NCBI GenBank assembly: GCA_004362315.1
Contig: SNWL01000007.1
Span: forward strand, 62,001 to 126,000
Direction of reading: 5' to 3'
DNA: 64,000 bases
Origin: Mycobacterium sp. BK086
Lineage (GTDB): Bacteria > Actinomycetota > Actinomycetes > Mycobacteriales > Mycobacteriaceae
Shown here piece after piece: positions 3,181 through 60,296 of the stretch. Numbering within the stretch: the first letter of the stretch is position 1; every line of letters starts with the position of its first letter. Position numbers and translations under genes: made by a program. Under the pieces are notes generated by a model that saw only the letters and a list, made by a program, of their open reading frames with translations, ran no database searches and was not told the origin of the DNA.

Positions 3181-3366
3181 ATGGCAAAGAAGGCACTGGT
3201 CAATAAGGCCAACAAGAAGCCGAAGTTCGCGGTGCGGGCCTACACCCGCTGCAACAGGTGCGGTCGCCCGCACGCCGTCTACCGCAAGTTCGGCCTGTGC
3301 CGAATCTGCTTGCGCGAGATGGCCCATGCCGGCGAACTGCCCGGTGTGCAGAAGTCCAGCTGGTAA
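3181..3366 (+). CDS. rpsZ: 30S ribosomal protein S14, zinc-binding type
   Basis: This 61-residue S14 starts at ATG 3181 ([16 protein letters not shown]). It carries the two zinc knuckles CNRC and CRIC that define the short zinc-dependent paralogue, as opposed to the longer Cys-less form used under zinc limitation. It belongs to the small-subunit head. It lies in the spc operon 4 bases after rplE; an 87-base gap then separates it from rpsH. In mycobacteria a second, zinc-independent S14 usually lies elsewhere under Zur control. Confidence 0.97.
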
Positions 3367-3453
3367 CAGACCCCTACAGAACAGGTGCGCAGCAGGCCCC
3401 AAGGGAATTCACCCGAGCGGGAACCGCTGCGAGGAAGGTAGACAGGCCCAGTC

Positions 3454-3852
3454 ATGACCATGACGGACCCCATCGCAGACTTTTTGACACGTCTGCGCAA
3501 CGCCAACTCGGCGTATCACGACGAGGTGACCCTGCCGCACAGCAAGATCAAGGCGAACATCGCCGAGATCCTGAAGAGCGAGGGTTACATCAGCGATTTC
3601 CGGACCGAGGATGCTCGGGTCGGCAAGTCGCTGGTTGTTTCACTGAAGTACGGCCCCAACCGCGAGCGCAGCCTCGCCGGTCTGCGCCGGGTGTCCAAGC
3701 CCGGTCTGCGGGTGTACGCGAAATCCACCAATCTGCCGCGGGTTCTCGGCGGCCTGGGCGTGGCGATCATCTCCACGTCTTCGGGTCTGCTGACCGACCG
3801 CCAGGCGTCCCGACAGGGCGTGGGCGGCGAAGTCCTCGCTTACGTGTGGTGA
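3454..3852 (+). CDS. rpsH: 30S ribosomal protein S8
   Basis: S8 (132 residues) is a primary binder of the 16S rRNA central domain. The signature is complete: [18 protein letters not shown] at the start and [11 protein letters not shown] at the end, with the [12 protein letters not shown] motif between. GGAAGG lies at 3434-3439, before ATG 3454. rplF begins 13 bases after its stop. Confidence 0.98.
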
Positions 3853-3865
3853 GGGAGACTTAGAC

Positions 3866-4405
3866 ATGTCGCGAATTGGTAAGCAGCCGGTGGCAATTCC
3901 CGCCGGTGTTGATGTGACGATCGACGGTCAGAACGTGTCGGTCAAGGGCCCCAAGGGCACGCTGCAGCTGGATATCGCCGAGCCGATCACGGTGTCGCGC
4001 AACGACGATGGCGCCATCGTGGTCAGCCGTCCCGACGACGAGCGGCGCAGCCGTTCGCTGCACGGGCTGTCGCGCACCCTGGTGTCCAACCTGGTGACCG
4101 GTGTGACCCAGGGTTACACCACCAAGATGGAGATCTTCGGCGTCGGTTACCGCGTGCAGCTCAAGGGAAGCAACCTCGAGTTCGCGCTCGGGTACAGCCA
4201 TCCCGTGGTCATCGAGGCCCCGGAGGGCATCACCTTCGCGGTGGAGACGCCCACGAAGTTCTCGATCACCGGTATCGACAAGCAAAAGGTCGGCCAGATC
4301 TCGGCGAACATCCGTCGCCTGCGTCGCCCGGACCCCTATAAGGGCAAGGGCGTGCGCTACGAGGGTGAGCAGATCCGCCGCAAGGTCGGAAAGACAGGTA
4401 AGTAA
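3866..4405 (+). CDS. rplF: 50S ribosomal protein L6
   Basis: L6 (179 residues) lies near the GTPase centre of the large subunit. Both repeats of the L6 fold can be followed: [19 protein letters not shown] at the N-terminus and the C-terminal [16 protein letters not shown] signature. The length is normal. rplR begins 3 bases downstream. Confidence 0.98.
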
Positions 4406-4408
4406 GCC

Positions 4409-4816
4409 ATGGCTCAAGCACAGAAAGCAGCCACCGATCGCACGCCGGTCGGCACGACGGTCTCGGCCGCGCGCCGGGCTTCGCGTCTGCGTCGGCACAA
4501 CCGGCTGCGCAAGAAGGTCGTCGGCACCGCCGAGCGGCCCCGCCTCGTGGTCAACCGCTCCTCGCGGCACATCCACGTGCAGCTGGTCAATGACGCCGAG
4601 GGCATCACGGTCGCCGCTGCCTCGTCGATCGAGGCCGACGTCCGCGCCCTCGAGGGTGACAAGAAGGCCCACAGCGTACGGGTCGGTCAGCTGATCGCCG
4701 AGCGCGCGAAGGCCGCCGGTGTCGAGGCCGTGGTGTTCGACCGCGGTGGCAACACCTACGGCGGGCGGATCGCGGCACTGGCCGACGCTGCCCGCGAGAA
4801 CGGACTCAAATTCTGA
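4409..4816 (+). CDS. rplR: 50S ribosomal protein L18
   Basis: L18 (135 residues) binds 5S rRNA. The conserved core [20 protein letters not shown] and the C-terminal [19 protein letters not shown] are present. The first ~25 residues ([19 protein letters not shown]) are a variable actinobacterial extension. It is followed after 25 bases by rpsE. Confidence 0.98.
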
Positions 4817-4841
4817 TGATGGACAACGGAAGGACCGCATG

Positions 4842-5543
4842 ATGTCGGAGCAGAGCGCAGCGCCGGATACCGGCGCCCCCTCAGCCGGCACCCGCACCGA
4901 CGTACAGCGCGGCGGACGTGACGACCGCGGTGGCCGTGGCCGCCGCGACGATCGCGGAGACCGTGGTGGACGCGGCGGTCGCGACGGCGGCGAGAAGAGC
5001 AACTACCTGGAGCGCGTTGTCACGATCAACCGTGTCTCCAAGGTGGTCAAGGGTGGTCGCCGGTTCAGCTTCACCGCACTGGTCATCGTCGGCGACGGCA
5101 ATGGCTTGGTCGGTGTCGGCTACGGCAAGGCCAAAGAGGTGCCCGCGGCGATCGCCAAGGGTGTCGAGGAAGCTCGCAAGAACTTCTTCCGCGTCCCGCT
5201 GATCGGCGGCACCGTCACCCATCCCGTTCAGGGCGAGGCTGCGGCCGGCGTCGTGATGCTGCGTCCGGCCAGCCCGGGTACCGGTGTCATCGCCGGTGGC
5301 GCGTGCCGTGCCGTGCTGGAATGCGCTGGCGTGCACGACGTTCTGGCCAAGTCGCTGGGCAGTGACAACGCGATCAACGTGGTTCACGCCACCGTTGCCG
5401 CGCTCAAGCTGCTGCAGCGTCCCGAAGAGGTGGCCGCTCGTCGCGGGCTGCCGATCGAAGACGTCGCGCCGGCCGGCATGCTGCGCGCTCGTCGGGAAAG
5501 CGAAGCGCTGGCTGCCGCAGCAGCGCGTGAAGGAAGCGCATAA
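4842..5543 (+). CDS. rpsE: 30S ribosomal protein S5
   Basis: S5 (233 residues) contributes to decoding fidelity. The conserved body starts at about residue 49 ([18 protein letters not shown]) and includes [12 protein letters not shown] and [14 protein letters not shown]. The first ~45 residues are a low-complexity Arg/Gly/Asp extension of RDDRGG-like units typical of mycobacteria. Two in-frame ATGs exist (4839, 4842); GGAAGGA at 4828-4834 gives better spacing to 4842. The segment [10 protein letters not shown] has Cys where I expect Val. Confidence 0.97.
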
Positions 5544-51133: not shown

Positions 51134-53173
51134 GTGAATGCTGGTCGGTTCGTCGGACGGGTAGGAGGCTTGGCGGCGGCATTGGGTATCGGTGCGGCAG
51201 TCTGGCTGGGCCAGGGTGTGGCATGGGCCGACGACGCGTCGCAGGGTGCTAGTTCGGCTGGTCCGGCAAGTCACGCTCCCCGCGGCGCGGCCACCCAACA
51301 CAGCACCACGCGCACCAAGCCAACCCCCACCGAACAGGCCAAGCGCACAACGACTCCCGTCTCGACTGCGAGATCCGCGCGGACGACTCCGACCACGGTT
51401 TCGTCTCGGGTCAGTGTGCCTAAGGTCGCTCTGCGGGTGCCCCACGCGCCCGTCACGGTGAAGTCCGTCGTGAACGACGTCCTGACGTGGGTCGGCCTTG
51501 GTGCCTTGACACCCCGTGTGCCGCTGCCCAATCTGCCTGTGCCGGAACCGATCGCAAGTTTTTGGCTTGCGGTCCGCGAGTTCGAGAAGTCGATCAACGT
51601 CGGTCTGGTCAGAACCAACCGCTCCGAGGCCATCGGCTACCTGTACAACCAGCCGTTGATGACCGCCGACGGTACCCGGGTGGTCATGATCAGCGAGCCG
51701 CCCTCGAGTGACGGTGCGTACAAGACGCGCGTGGTGGTGGTCGATACCGCCACCGGCCTCCGAGTCGGCTACGCTGATCTCCCCGGCAACCCGGCCGGTC
51801 TGGTGTTGAGCGCTGACGGTCGTCGCGCGGTGGTCACGTCGGCCGAGAACTTGTCAGTACACGTGACGGTGTTCAATACCGCGACCGGCAATCAAATCGG
51901 CAGCACGGTAACGGTTTCCGGGGCGCTGGCGCGCCCGCCGGTGCTGAGCGCCGACGGTAGCCGCGCTCTGATCGCCATGCAATCCGGTAATGAAAGCGGA
52001 GACACGGTAGAGCTGACCGCCATCGACACGAAGACGGGCACCCAGAGCGGTAGCACCCTGGTCCTGTCCGGACTCACGGCGAATACGTTGTTGACCGCGG
52101 ACGGCAGTCGGGCCGTGATCGCCGCCGTCGGCCTCTATCCCGGGACCCATGTTGCCGTGATGGATACCGCGACGGGTCTGCAGCTCGGCGATACCGTCAG
52201 CCTCGCCAGTGGCCTTACAAAGGCAACGTTGAGTGCGGATGGCAGTCGGGCGTTGGTCATCGCTGGAAGTTATGTGGGTGGAGAACCCGGATACGCCTAC
52301 GAAGCGGCGGTGGTTGACACCGCGACGGGCGCCCAGGTCGGTGACACGATGACCTCGACTGTCCCCCTGGCCGACGGGATCTTGAACAACAACGGCACGC
52401 GGGTGACGTTCACGATGCCCGCACTGGCCGGGCTGACGAGCCACACCATCGCCACGTTCGATCCGGAAACGGGTGAGCAGGTCGGTCCCACGCTCAATCT
52501 CTCCGCCGACCGATCGTCGACCGTGCCGATCGGCACCACCAGCCGCGTTCTGATCAGCTCGGGCGGATACGACGTCGCGCAGGATCAATACATGTCCTGG
52601 GTGAGGGTGGTCGACTCGACGACGGGCAATCAAATCGGCGACGCCGTCCCCGTCGCCGGACGGATAAGCCAGACGCTGTTGAGCGCCGACGGCAAGCGGG
52701 CCGTGCTCACCACCGAGGGCTCCACGACCATGGTGATCGATACGGCTACCGGCGCTCAGGTCGGCGACGCGTTGACCCTCACCGGCGAACGCATGGACAC
52801 GGTGTTGAGCGGCGATGGCAGACGCGCGCTCGTGCTGTCGAGGACCTGGCACTCGATCCCCGGCTACACCTACCGAGTCGCGGTGATCAACACCGTAACT
52901 GGTGCCCAGCTCGGCGAGACATTGTCGTTCACCGGCGACACGTCGCTGGTCGCTTCACTGAGTGCCGACGGCTCCCGCGCCCTCATCGCGCTTGGAACCG
53001 ATACCGGCTACTCCCGTGTGGAAGTCCTCAACACCCGCACGGGCGCGCACACCGGCGTCAAGGTGCCGTACAACGCCGGGGGGTGGAGCCCGCTGATCAG
53101 TGCCGACGGCACCCGCGCCTTCGTTGCCGGCAACAGCTACTACCCCTTCGTGGATACCTACCGCATCTTCTAG
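51134..53173 (+). CDS. Exported propeller-like repeat protein
   Basis: The 679-residue protein has a signal peptide (residues ~1-33, ending AWA-DDAS), a Thr/Ser/Arg-rich low-complexity linker (about 35-95), and then about ten units of ~50 residues. Each unit has an LSADGSRALI-like turn followed by a VVDTATGAQVGDT-like strand pair. This pattern fits a YVTN/WD-type beta-propeller. It starts at GTG 51134. Probably wall-associated and involved in binding; no catalytic residues were recognised. Confidence 0.75.
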   Translation: MNAGRFVGRVGGLAAALGIGAAVWLGQGVAWADDASQGASSAGPASHAPRGAATQHSTTRTKPTPTEQAKRTTTPVSTARSARTTPTTVSSRVSVPKVALRVPHAPVTVKSVVNDVLTWVGLGALTPRVPLPNLPVPEPIASFWLAVREFEKSINVGLVRTNRSEAIGYLYNQPLMTADGTRVVMISEPPSSDGAYKTRVVVVDTATGLRVGYADLPGNPAGLVLSADGRRAVVTSAENLSVHVTVFNTATGNQIGSTVTVSGALARPPVLSADGSRALIAMQSGNESGDTVELTAIDTKTGTQSGSTLVLSGLTANTLLTADGSRAVIAAVGLYPGTHVAVMDTATGLQLGDTVSLASGLTKATLSADGSRALVIAGSYVGGEPGYAYEAAVVDTATGAQVGDTMTSTVPLADGILNNNGTRVTFTMPALAGLTSHTIATFDPETGEQVGPTLNLSADRSSTVPIGTTSRVLISSGGYDVAQDQYMSWVRVVDSTTGNQIGDAVPVAGRISQTLLSADGKRAVLTTEGSTTMVIDTATGAQVGDALTLTGERMDTVLSGDGRRALVLSRTWHSIPGYTYRVAVINTVTGAQLGETLSFTGDTSLVASLSADGSRALIALGTDTGYSRVEVLNTRTGAHTGVKVPYNAGGWSPLISADGTRAFVAGNSYYPFVDTYRIF

Positions 53174-55480: not shown

Positions 55481-56266
55481 GTGGTCCCCGAATGGCACTT
55501 TGGACCGATGGCCGTGCCGGTGCACGGTCTGTTCGTGGGGCTCGGGGTGCTGACGGCGATGGTCGTGTTCGTGCTCGAGGCGCGGCGGCGCGGGGCCGTC
55601 AATGATCAGTCGTTGGTCGCGGTCGCCGGTGCGCTGGTCGGCGGTGCGATCGGTATGCGCCTGTCCGGCTGGGCACGCCACCTCGATTTCGCCGCCAACC
55701 CGACCCTGGCGCAAGCATGGCAGTACGGCGCCAAGAGCATTCTCGGCGGTCTGCTCGGCGCATATGTGGGAGTGCTGGTCGCCAAACGCATTGGCGGCTA
55801 TCGGGGGAAGACCGGCGATCTGTTCGCACCTGCGGTGGCGCTCGGGATGGCCGTCGGCCGGATCGGGTGTTTTCTCACCGAGGCGCCCGGTCGCCCGACC
55901 TCCCTGCCGTGGGGTGTGCACGCTGCCGCCGGCACGCCGGAATGTCCGGGATGCCTGACCGGCCAGGCGATGCATCCCTCCTTCCTGTACGAGATCGTCT
56001 TCCAGCTCGCGGCATTCGCGGCACTGATGTGGTTACGCTCTCGAATCACCAGACCCGGCGAACTCTTCGTCCTCTATGTCGCGGCCTACGCCGTGTTCCG
56101 GTTCTTCGTCGAGTTCACTAGGGCCAACGAGACTGTCTGGCTGGATTTGACTCGGCCGCAATGGTTTCTGCTGCCATCGCTGGCGCTCATCGGATTCCGG
56201 CTGTGGTACGGCTACCGCCGCGGTTACTATCGTCTCTCGACGCGTCGGCAGGAGGTTCACGTATGA
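55481..56266 (+). CDS. Lgt paralogue (prolipoprotein diacylglyceryl transferase-like membrane protein)
   Basis: The 261-residue protein has about seven hydrophobic helices and Lgt-type motifs: HGLFVGLGVL, GRIGCFLTEAPGRPTSLPWGV and MHPSFLYEIVFQLAAF. In true Lgt the first of these is GRIGNF; here Asn is replaced by Cys, and PECPGCLTGQA adds a CPxC pair. Lgt moves diacylglycerol from phosphatidylglycerol to a Cys thiol. GTG 55481 is the start. It overlaps a small membrane protein gene (ATGA), which overlaps a radical SAM gene. Confidence 0.85.
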   Translation: MVPEWHFGPMAVPVHGLFVGLGVLTAMVVFVLEARRRGAVNDQSLVAVAGALVGGAIGMRLSGWARHLDFAANPTLAQAWQYGAKSILGGLLGAYVGVLVAKRIGGYRGKTGDLFAPAVALGMAVGRIGCFLTEAPGRPTSLPWGVHAAAGTPECPGCLTGQAMHPSFLYEIVFQLAAFAALMWLRSRITRPGELFVLYVAAYAVFRFFVEFTRANETVWLDLTRPQWFLLPSLALIGFRLWYGYRRGYYRLSTRRQEVHV

Positions 56267-56730
56267 CGACGCCCCCACCCGGCGAGGACCAGAACGGCGA
56301 CGTTCCGCCGCCTGAGGATCCGCTGCCGCCCGCCTATCTGCCGCAACAGCCGTGGTATCCACAGCCCCCGGCGTATCCGCCGCCAGGCTATCGGCCGCCG
56401 GGTCAGTACGACGCCCCGCCGCCGGGACTTCCGCCGAGGCGCCCACCGATCTCGGTGGGCATGGCGTTCCTCGGGGTGTTCATCTACTTCGCGATCAACT
56501 TCGTCGTGGGTTTCGCCGTGCTGTCGGCGTCGGGCGGCAGTGGGCATGTGGTCGTGGCGACCGGCGCCGCGGCGTTGGCCCTCGGCGCTTTGGGCGGTGG
56601 CGCCGCGCTGCTGGCGACCAAGAATTCGAATGCGAAGGGGCTGGGCTTGGGGCTGATGATCGGCTGGGCCTTTCTCTCCGTGGTGTCCGTCGGGTTCTGC
56701 ACCGGCCTCAATCCCGAGATGTATACGTGA
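56263..56730 (+). CDS. Small Pro-rich membrane protein between the Lgt paralogue and the radical SAM enzyme
   Basis: The 155-residue protein has a ~65-residue cytosolic Pro/Tyr/Gln-rich N-terminus (PPAYLPQQPWYPQPPAYPP) and three membrane helices (about residues 67-88, 92-114 and 122-143). AGGAGG at 56250-56255 precedes ATG 56263, and both ends overlap neighbouring genes (ATGA and GTGA). It probably organises the Lgt-like and radical SAM proteins at the membrane; this is inference from position. Confidence 0.75.
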   Translation: MTTPPPGEDQNGDVPPPEDPLPPAYLPQQPWYPQPPAYPPPGYRPPGQYDAPPPGLPPRRPPISVGMAFLGVFIYFAINFVVGFAVLSASGGSGHVVVATGAAALALGALGGGAALLATKNSNAKGLGLGLMIGWAFLSVVSVGFCTGLNPEMYT

Positions 56731-58295
56731 CATCCAGCGGCATGGGGCTGCGCGGTGACCGGCTCGTGCGGTACGTCACCGCCTTCTGCCCGACCTGTCA
56801 CGATGAGGCGCCGGAGAAGCCGCTGACCGATGTCGCCCGGCTCAGCGGCCGGCTCGTCGAACGCGATGGCCGGGTGTGGCTCGAGCGTGGTTGCCAGACA
56901 CACGGATTGGTGCGCACCCTCTACGACGAAGACCCGGAGATCCTGTCCTATCTCGAGGAGTGGACGGCGCCGACCAAGGCTCACACCCCGGACGTGGCCG
57001 GCAATTTCGATCCGATCCCGTCGGCGTACCTGCGCGGGCTGCCGGAGATGCAGACCCAGCACACCTGCATCCTGCTCCAAGACATCAGCGAAGTATGCAA
57101 CCTCCGTTGCCCCACCTGCTTCACCGGCTCCTCACCCGACCTTCGCAACGTGGTGCCCGTCGCTGAGGTGCTCGCCAACGTCGACCAGCGACTGGCCCGC
57201 GAGAACGGCCGTCTCGACGTGCTGATGCTGTCCGGTGGCGAGCCGACGCTACATCCAGCCTTGCCCGAGCTCCTCACTGAACTGACGGCGCGCCCCGTCA
57301 CTCGAATACTGATCAACAGCAACGGTATTCGCATCGCCACCGATGACGCTCTACTCGCGTTGCTCGCCGAGCACCGGCAGCGTGTCGAGGTGTATCTGCA
57401 GTACGACGGCCTGTCCGAAGCCACTCATCGCCACCATCGCGGGGGCGATCTTCGGGCGATGAAGCGAACTGCGCTGCAACGACTCTCGGACAACGAGATC
57501 TTCACGACATTGGTGATGACCACCGCACTCGGGGTGAACGACAGCGAGATCGGCGACATGGTTCAGCTGGCCCTGGACACCCCCTATGTGGGCGGCATCA
57601 GCATCCAGCCGCAGTTCGGCTCCGGCCGGTCCGGGCATATCGATCCGCTGGATCGGCTCACCCACACGGGCGTGCTGAAGCGGCTGGGTCCGCAGACGAA
57701 CGGGTTGGTCACCTGGCGCGATCTGACCGCGCTGCCGTGTTCGCATCCGCACTGCTGTTCGGTCGGTTACCTGATCCGCGACGACGGCGGTCAGTGGCGT
57801 TCGCTGGTATCACTGCTCGGCCACGACGGTCTCAAGGCCAGGCTCGGCCTGGTCTCGAACCGAATCGCCGACAGTGAGTTGCCTCAGCAATTGCGGCTCG
57901 CGGTGAAGGAATCGCTTCTCGGGCTGTTATCCGAACAGTCGTCGCTGTCGCATCCCGATATCGGGGACGTGTGGCAGATCATCTGCCAGAGCTGCGATCT
58001 CGGCATGGGCACCCTGCTGGCCATGGCGTCGTCGGCACTTCCCGGGCGACGGCGGAAGCTGCGCCGGCTGCTCGGTGAGCGGGTCGTCCGGGTGACCGTC
58101 AAGCCCTTCATGGACATGTCCACCATGATCGAAGAGCGGTTGGTGCAGTGCTGCGTACACGTCGGCACCCGCTCCGACCAGCATCAGTGCGCACCGTTCT
58201 GCGCCGTGCAGGCGTGGCCCGCGTTGAGCCGCCAACGGATGTCGATCTCGGCGGGCAGGCAGCTTCCCCTCGTGTCGGTAGCGAACCCGGAATAA
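56727..58295 (+). CDS. Radical SAM enzyme resembling tetraether synthase (Tes/MJ0619 type)
   Basis: The 522-residue enzyme has the radical SAM cluster motif CNLRCPTC (Cys124, Cys128, Cys131), preceded by an N-terminal Cys/His domain (FCPTCH; RGCQTHG). Further motifs are LSGGEPTLHPALPELL, VYLQYDGLSEATH, PCSHPHCCSVGYL and a C-terminal QCCVHVG...APFCAVQAW. The last two Cys clusters suggest extra Fe-S centres, as in archaeal tetraether synthase, which joins lipid tails. GTG 56727 overlaps the preceding stop. Pairing with an Lgt paralogue supports a lipid substrate. Confidence 0.82.
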   Translation: MTSSGMGLRGDRLVRYVTAFCPTCHDEAPEKPLTDVARLSGRLVERDGRVWLERGCQTHGLVRTLYDEDPEILSYLEEWTAPTKAHTPDVAGNFDPIPSAYLRGLPEMQTQHTCILLQDISEVCNLRCPTCFTGSSPDLRNVVPVAEVLANVDQRLARENGRLDVLMLSGGEPTLHPALPELLTELTARPVTRILINSNGIRIATDDALLALLAEHRQRVEVYLQYDGLSEATHRHHRGGDLRAMKRTALQRLSDNEIFTTLVMTTALGVNDSEIGDMVQLALDTPYVGGISIQPQFGSGRSGHIDPLDRLTHTGVLKRLGPQTNGLVTWRDLTALPCSHPHCCSVGYLIRDDGGQWRSLVSLLGHDGLKARLGLVSNRIADSELPQQLRLAVKESLLGLLSEQSSLSHPDIGDVWQIICQSCDLGMGTLLAMASSALPGRRRKLRRLLGERVVRVTVKPFMDMSTMIEERLVQCCVHVGTRSDQHQCAPFCAVQAWPALSRQRMSISAGRQLPLVSVANPE

Positions 58296-59645: not shown

Positions 59646-60296
59646 TCAGGCCACAGCGGGCGTGGCCTGTAGCTCGCGTTGGTAGCGAGGGGCTTTCGCC
59701 AACAGGGCCACGTAAAGCGCATCCAGGAACACGATCTCGAGATAGATCACCAGCCAGAGAACATTTCCGGGGGAATAGAGGTACTGCGAGATCGCGGCCG
59801 TCAGGGTGCCCAGCAGCTTGCCCCACGCGATCCACATGCTCTGCCCGCGCCGGTTACCGCGGCGAATGAGCATCGTCAAGAACAAGACCGACATGATCAG
59901 GTTGTCGATGTAGGCGGTGTAGACCGAGCCGTCTTCGCGCCCGAAGACCGACACGATCGCCACCATGATCGGTGTCACCATGACAAACGCGAGGGCAAAC
60001 ATCGGCCAGAAGTACGACTCGGGGAGGTTCTTCGGGTAATCGGAGCGCCAGTACTTCAGGAAGATCGCCACTATTGCGATATCGGCCGCGAACCAGACCC
60101 CGTTGATGAGCTCCTGCATCAATCCGCCGACCGATGGATAGGCGAAGGTGAACAGAAACTCCCAGGTGATGTTCATGACCAAGGCGAGGAACGGCATCGC
60201 GTACGTGCGGTCGAGCAGGCCCTGCCGGATCACGCAGGCGTAGGTGATGATCCAGAAGATTCCGCTGGCCAGTCCGAAAGCGTCGATGAGCGACAT
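59646..60296 (-). CDS. Seven-helix membrane protein resembling PaxB/Pyr4-type terpene cyclases
   Basis: The 216-residue protein is mostly membrane helices. The segment [11 protein letters not shown] (Glu46) and the C-terminal [14 protein letters not shown] (Asp192) resemble the conserved acidic residues of the PaxB/Pyr4 integral-membrane meroterpenoid cyclases (Glu63 and Asp218 in Pyr4, from memory). Size and helix number also fit. Bacterial members cyclise prenylated compounds. No prenyltransferase or epoxidase gene is nearby. It could instead be a DUF-type transporter; the assignment rests on the two motifs and layout. Confidence 0.62.

Follow-up and report, generated by a model that had tools for sequence, protein, structure and literature searches.

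The DNA considered here is a stretch of 64,000 nucleotides from Mycobacterium sp. BK086 (assembly GCA_004362315.1, contig SNWL01000007.1, positions 62,001 to 126,000 of the forward strand; hereafter, the window), and our subject is a set of three consecutive genes in it that may form a compact cassette for modifying membrane lipids. The first gene (55481..56266, forward strand) encodes a paralogue of the prolipoprotein diacylglyceryl transferase Lgt, 261 amino acids long when read from a GTG start that is not proved; the frame opens upstream of this GTG, at TTG 55433. The second gene (56263..56730, forward strand) encodes a protein that we call MID, with a Pro-rich N-terminus, three predicted transmembrane helices, and a Cys at position 146 in a CTGLNPEMY tail. 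The third (56727..58295, forward strand) begins with GTG and encodes a radical S-adenosylmethionine (SAM) enzyme of the Tes superfamily, 522 amino acids in length, designated RSAM. A first-pass annotation of this DNA had placed three overlapping genes here, with the motifs GRIGCF, CNLRCPTC, PCSHPHCC and CCVH...PFC, and all of these are present. It had also called the genes fused by their overlaps; each neighbouring pair overlaps by 4 bp only (ATGA and GTGA), and the genes are separate. In family scans, the Lgt paralogue scored 129.4 bits with Pfam LGT (PF01790, cut-off 24.9), and RSAM scored 71.8 bits with Pfam Radical_SAM (PF04055) and, at its N-terminus, 42.1 bits with the HMPTM N-terminal zinc ribbon (PF23545). 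MID had no match in the Pfam or NCBIfam scans.

To describe the distribution of the cassette, we used 103 loci carrying an RSAM orthologue; of 374 confirmed genome matches the best 80 were kept, a choice that under-samples distant forms. The 103 include six apparent same-genome pairs (L021/L086, L023/L091, L025/L113, L027/L109, L062/L088 and L063/L107), L069 and L070 are pieces of one genome, and genes in the compared loci were called with a simple codon-score script. The Lgt paralogue lay within 1.5 kb of RSAM on the same strand in 101 of the 103 loci, and both unpaired loci, L069 and L126, are at contig ends, with 2 and 446 bases upstream. Among 61 related genomes, counted without regard to their kinship, the RSAM orthologue and the Lgt paralogue were present in the identical 15. 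In 14 of these, the RSAM orthologue was at least 70% identical across most of its length, and in the remaining one (G008) it was an 82% contig-end fragment. The Lgt paralogues were at least 55% identical, other Lgt matches in these genomes being 32-38% identical. After nine duplicates or fragments were dropped, 92 loci remained for residue and identity counts, and the Lgt and RSAM identity matrices were correlated (Pearson 0.92, Spearman 0.71, uncorrected for shared ancestry). Phylum-wide, an RSAM match at E 1e-20 or better was found in 23 of 396 genomes. Outside the genus, at about 61-67% identity, RSAM adjoins an Lgt gene at L064, L065, L066, L067, L068 and L070, and at L069 the contig breaks off. 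The cassette is not confined to mycobacteria, the group named in the first-pass annotation, but is carried by other actinobacteria too; the pairing with Lgt, for which it had proposed a neighbourhood survey, is conserved.

More distant relatives of RSAM keep other company. No Lgt paralogue was found at E 1e-10 or better in 13 distant actinobacterial loci, and a methyltransferase gene (>100 bits) was present in 6 of these 13 and in none of the 103 orthologue loci. Five of the distant relatives were scanned and scored 286-355 bits with the NCBIfam model of TrsS, a radical SAM (seleno)protein, and 260-332 bits with that of Tes, below both cut-offs. Loci with a Tes/TrsS-like radical SAM gene and a methyltransferase gene (L034, L035, L072, L074, L075, L077, L169, L170 and L171) occur in Actinomycetota and haloarchaea, and their radical SAM proteins fall below the TrsS and Tes cut-offs where scanned.

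By the sequence tests run, RSAM belongs to a separate clade of the Tes superfamily and is not Tes itself. Its closest solved structure by sequence is 7tol, the archaeal Tes (E 1.8e-31; profile E 7e-42). Foldseek and VIA-align both put 7tol and 7tom top for the RSAM fold model, a low-confidence model whose overall fold agrees with Tes over all domains, and the order of the domains is the same. On the NCBIfam model for Tes (NF045702), RSAM scored 149.5 bits and did not reach the cut-off of 450; its highest NCBIfam score, 192.3 bits, was obtained with TrsS (NF045646), where the cut-off of 490 was likewise not reached. The proposal of a tetraether-synthase-like enzyme therefore stands as regards superfamily and nearest solved structure, and the profile comparison suggested with it confirmed relatedness, but at scores far below either cut-off, and identity with Tes does not hold. 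Peptide maturases of the SkfB type were among the weaker matches in both sequence and structure searches.

Four metal sites have been described in Tes by Lloyd et al. (PMC9433317), and several of the corresponding motifs are found in RSAM. The rubredoxin-type residues C21/C24/C56/H59, the counterpart of Tes ligands, were invariant in 15 of 15 aligned orthologues, as were the radical SAM CxxxCxxC (C124/C128/C131, in CNLRCPTC) and the C-terminal CCxH...PFC (C475/C476/H478...C488), which aligns with Tes and is accompanied by C492. CCxH was absent from all 16 other Tes/TrsS-like relatives examined, some of which are incomplete at the C-terminal end. Within the RSAM clade, PCSHPHC (C338, C343) and C423 are invariant and C344 is not; L071-L073 have PCCDPxC in a comparable region. 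Residue counting on a sequence alignment places Lys and Val in RSAM where Tes has Met439 and Tyr459, residues that are conserved in 1,000 archaeal Tes homologues, although the Tes variants M439A, Y459F and Y459L stay active (PMC9433317). At L068 (7002-8846), the RSAM orthologue is an open frame and carries, beyond the PCSHPHCC region, an extra repetitive stretch of about 70 residues. The idea that RSAM might be a selenoprotein was rejected; in L029 and L063, where an in-frame TGA was flagged inside the match, it is the normal C-terminal stop.

The Lgt paralogue is unlikely, judged by its residues and scores, to be a normal lipoprotein Lgt. It scored 104.4 bits with TIGR00544, below the cut-off of 118.9. 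When residues were matched to the E. coli enzyme by alignment to 5azb, N146 was replaced by Cys (GRIGCF) in 92 of 92 paralogues, Y26 by His in all 86 with a residue at that place (6 have gaps), and H103 by Leu in 85 of 92, the window copy included, or by Ile in the other 7. R143, E151, G154, Y235, R239, E243 and R246 were unchanged in 92/92. Y26, H103, R143, N146, G154 and R239 are required in E. coli Lgt, and R143 and R239 have been proposed as residues that contact the phospholipid headgroup (PMC13251419). The same source gives W for H103 in Actinobacteria and Cys for N146 in some distant Lgt proteins. Because normal actinobacterial Lgt has W at that place, the loss of H103 alone says little. 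About 87 of the 92 paralogues have CxxC in the head region (CPGC in the window copy). The same genome also carries a normal lgt, with a score of 211 bits, the motif GRLGN, and, where the paralogue is changed from Y26, H103 and N146, Tyr, Trp and Asn. A pair of lgt copies has been recorded in about 1,300 genomes, and the second Lgt of M. smegmatis, MSMEG_5408, carries Y26H and N146C and is presumed to have low activity (PMC13251419).

For the window copy of MID, three helices are seen in the hydropathy profile, and the charge distribution favours an N-terminus inside and a C-terminus outside, which places the conserved Cys at the predicted outer end of the third helix. This Cys is kept in 96 of 100 aligned copies, mostly within CTGxNPxxY. 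MID changes fastest of the three proteins, with a mean pairwise identity of 0.47 over the same 82 loci that gave 0.75 for Lgt and 0.81 for RSAM. It was detected beside RSAM in 95 of 103 loci, a slightly generous count, as the profile had two doubtful seeds (L066 and L032). MID was not seen beside RSAM at L064, L065, L067, L068 and L070 despite enough flank, and at L066 a divergent small protein alone occupies its place. MID as a classical lipobox protein was considered and rejected, since a large residue usually precedes the Cys; three copies, all divergent (L149, L150 and L161), read IVGC there. There is a hint that the CxxC of the Lgt paralogue covaries with a typical MID. Six of 100 paralogues are without the pair (L064, L065, L066, L068, L070 and L033, of which L068 has CxxxC), and all six come from loci without typical MID. 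Several of these loci represent one deep lineage, and there are exceptions to the match: L067 has CxxC without MID, and L032 has CPGC although an unusual protein stands where MID would be. The three-gene module named in the first-pass annotation was accurate for Lgt, MID and RSAM, but RSAM is followed in 39 of 103 loci by an additional small membrane protein, with two transmembrane segments and the motifs PLRLC and S[KR]CxLxDTRLVL; in the window's own genome this protein gave no more than a weak match (E 0.067).

The pair was also found in another phylum. In a plasmid collection, a plasmid of Persicobacter psychrovividus (Bacteroidota) carries, at 3238-5392 of locus L168, an Lgt paralogue overlapping a distant Tes-like RSAM. 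This Lgt paralogue has GRIGCF, His for Y26, and Met for H103. Its RSAM is about 30% identical and keeps CPYDCGLCPDH, without PCSHPHC and CCxH, and no MID was detected at the locus. Ten records in the collection contain a relative of the Persicobacter RSAM, and four of these also match its Lgt paralogue at 92 bits or more: P. psychrovividus itself, M. branderi, M. avium, and Nonomuraea gerenzanensis, whose record is classed as a plasmid although 11.9 Mb in size. Lgt adjoins RSAM in all four. On the M. avium and M. branderi plasmids, Lgt and RSAM are accompanied by two MID genes, and a transposase gene lies downstream. The Persicobacter pair implies that the pairing is broader than the RSAM clade, and that the link between the two genes does not depend on the clade-specific motifs.

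We put at roughly 0.5 the probability that this is a compact membrane-lipid-modifying cassette, in which the pair would modify the tails of membrane lipids. The simplest assumption is that the substrate is a lipid, because a relative of a phospholipid enzyme is the near-constant partner, and because Tes (PMC9433317) and Gms (PMC11186832) act on lipid tails. It is supported by a Tes-like RSAM with CCxH...PFC, the conserved pairing with Lgt, the correlated identity matrices of the two proteins, the retention of the proposed headgroup residues R143 and R239 in every paralogue aligned, and the same kind of pair (Y26H, N146C) in Persicobacter. Clear membership of RSAM in a family with a known non-lipid substrate was not seen, and the pairing is conserved, the two points on which the first-pass annotation had staked its lipid proposal. 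In the proposed mechanism, RSAM would make a 5'-deoxyadenosyl radical in the cytosol, take a hydrogen from an unreactive acyl-chain carbon, and, by analogy with Tes, form a new bond at the Tes-type C-terminal cluster, most likely between lipid chains. The Lgt paralogue, in which the proposed headgroup residues are kept and some needed for lipoprotein synthesis are altered, may bind phosphatidylglycerol or a similar lipid and hold or move it, or alternatively pass its glyceryl-lipid part on to a different acceptor. The membrane partners would be MID and, in other clades, the two-transmembrane protein.

Several observations weigh against this reading. The fold model is weak (mean predicted local distance difference test score, pLDDT, 58), and RSAM scores higher with TrsS than with Tes (192 vs 149.5 bits). 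None of the 15 RSAM orthologues has a Cys aligned with the N-terminal [4Fe-4S] cluster of Tes (C73, C77, C80 and a His), and the CxxxCxxCxxH motif of this cluster is present in 13 of the 16 other relatives, the three without it being two from haloarchaea and one whose start was truncated in the gene call. The pairing of distant relatives with methyltransferase genes raises the possibility that the superfamily has non-lipid substrates. Tes approaches its substrate from the cytosol, Lgt acts at the outer face of the membrane, and any substrate common to both would have to cross. Finally, no lipid product of the cassette is known.

A narrower form of the same proposal makes RSAM a bacterial synthase of membrane-spanning lipids, like Tes or Mss, that joins the acyl chains of two phospholipids end to end. 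That Tes is the closest solved structure, that CCxH...PFC is common to both, and that the Met439/Tyr459 variants of Tes stay active are all consistent with this. We nevertheless regard it as unlikely, since the score of 149.5 bits is far from the Tes cut-off, the N-terminal cluster is missing, and PCSHPHC has been added. We also know of no report of membrane-spanning lipids in the carrier genera, although this was not searched for.

Rather more doubtful is that RSAM acts on MID or another protein, the Lgt paralogue then lipidating or anchoring the product. In favour, MID is variable apart from a short conserved tail motif and sometimes occurs as two copies, and SkfB-like maturases are among the weaker matches of RSAM. 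However, MID cannot be the general substrate of RSAM because it is missing beside six distant loci (L066 has only the divergent small protein) and undetected in Persicobacter, and the conserved Cys of MID is predicted to face outward, whereas RSAM is cytosolic. Elements of the lipid and protein proposals can be combined: the Lgt relative might lipidate the outer-face Cys of MID, and the Tes relative might bond the lipid tail to another chain, giving a cross-linked or membrane-spanning anchor. We consider this improbable, and lowered our estimate slightly because the Persicobacter pair has no detectable MID; in lineages without MID, the pair would have to use another acceptor. We know of no earlier description of a lipoprotein with such an anchor.

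It is also quite improbable that RSAM performs TrsS-like chemistry on small molecules (e.g., arsenic, selenium or other small substrates), with the Lgt paralogue adding a lipid. TrsS gives the best NCBIfam score of RSAM, and the methyltransferases near 6 of the 13 distant relatives resemble, by eye, arsenite methyltransferases, but no such gene occurs in any of the 103 orthologue loci, the TrsS cut-off is not reached, and the CCxH of RSAM is absent from the TrsS/Tes-like relatives. Least credible is an ordinary second lipoprotein Lgt lying by chance beside a radical SAM gene, for although the Pfam LGT score is far over its cut-off and two-copy genomes are known, the genes are paired in 101/103 loci and present in the same 15/61 genomes, the TIGR00544 cut-off is missed, N146C and Y26H are without exception, and MSMEG_5408 with these two changes is itself presumed to be of low activity (PMC13251419).

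The surroundings of the cassette are diverse. The gene order is Lgt-MID-RSAM in mycobacteria and Nocardia, and MID-Lgt-RSAM in most Nonomuraea loci. Flanking genes fell into 40 clusters before the cassette (94 loci) and 40 after it (92 loci); together they gave 48 different contexts among 89 loci, an approximate count as small neighbours were skipped. In the window, an acyl-CoA dehydrogenase-like gene precedes the cassette, and short-chain dehydrogenase/reductase (SDR), MarR and Pyr4-type genes follow; these flanking genes were found again solely beside close relatives. The product of the Pyr4-type gene (59649-60296, reverse strand) has a Pfam match to the Pyr4-like transmembrane terpene cyclases (PF25129, E 1.2e-29), which are best known from fungal meroterpenoid pathways, and at L082 such a gene stands beside a MarR gene, conserved as in the window. 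Further upstream, at 51134-53173 (forward strand), lies a gene for a 679-residue protein with repeated SADGxRA-like motifs, by eye probably a beta-propeller. In other genomes, an ArsR-like regulator and an apparent ZIP-type metal transporter gene are seen, by eye, just upstream of the Lgt paralogue at L092 (3127-4711) and similar Mycolicibacterium loci, and, again by eye, a histidine kinase and a response regulator precede MID-Lgt-RSAM at L138 (2776-4553), in Nonomuraea. At L064 (6504-8042), the Lgt paralogue is preceded by a gene for a membrane protein with a sulfite-oxidase-type molybdopterin-like domain, and at L065 and L070 a gene of similar length (499 amino acids) lies nearby.

If the lipid-modifying reading is true, a membrane lipid or lipoprotein of common soil actinobacteria has so far been overlooked. 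Tes-type enzymes bond unreactive lipid carbons, and Tes homologues have been reported in bacteria from which such lipids are not known (PMC9433317, PMC8941075). The fixed Lgt partner, the patchy presence in close relatives (15/61), and a unit of <3 kb make the role of these bacterial relatives experimentally tractable.

A literature search, outside which most subscription papers lay, found the Lgt-RSAM pair nowhere described as a system; the two genes appear side by side only in passing, in a report on a segment of about 3.5 kb in Pseudarthrobacter that holds one gene annotated as radical SAM and another as lgt and is lacking in one of four single-cell genomes (PMC12010503). The likeness of that segment to the cassette is that of the same two annotated genes, by annotation alone. 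The resemblance of MSMEG_5408 to the Lgt paralogue is at the level of two residues, Y26H and N146C (PMC13251419), and MSMEG_5406, near it in number only, is down about 9-fold under zinc starvation (PMC7174638). Among characterized proteins, Lgt (5AZB/5AZC) shares with the paralogue the Pfam LGT family and R143, G154, Y235, R239 and R246, whereas the paralogue differs in Y26H, H103L/I, N146C, a head CxxC in most copies, and a score under the TIGR00544 cut-off. TrsS gives RSAM its highest NCBIfam score, but the cut-off of 490 is missed and the methyltransferase neighbour is lacking in 103 loci. The parallel with the closest solved structure is Tes (GDGT-MAS, MJ0619; 7TOL/7TOM), the archaeal tetraether lipid synthase, which RSAM resembles in fold, domain order, rubredoxin-type motif, CxxxCxxC and CCxH...PFC, and from which it differs in having no N-terminal CxxxCxxCxxH, an extra PCSHPHC and C423, replacements of Met439 and Tyr459, and a fixed Lgt partner.

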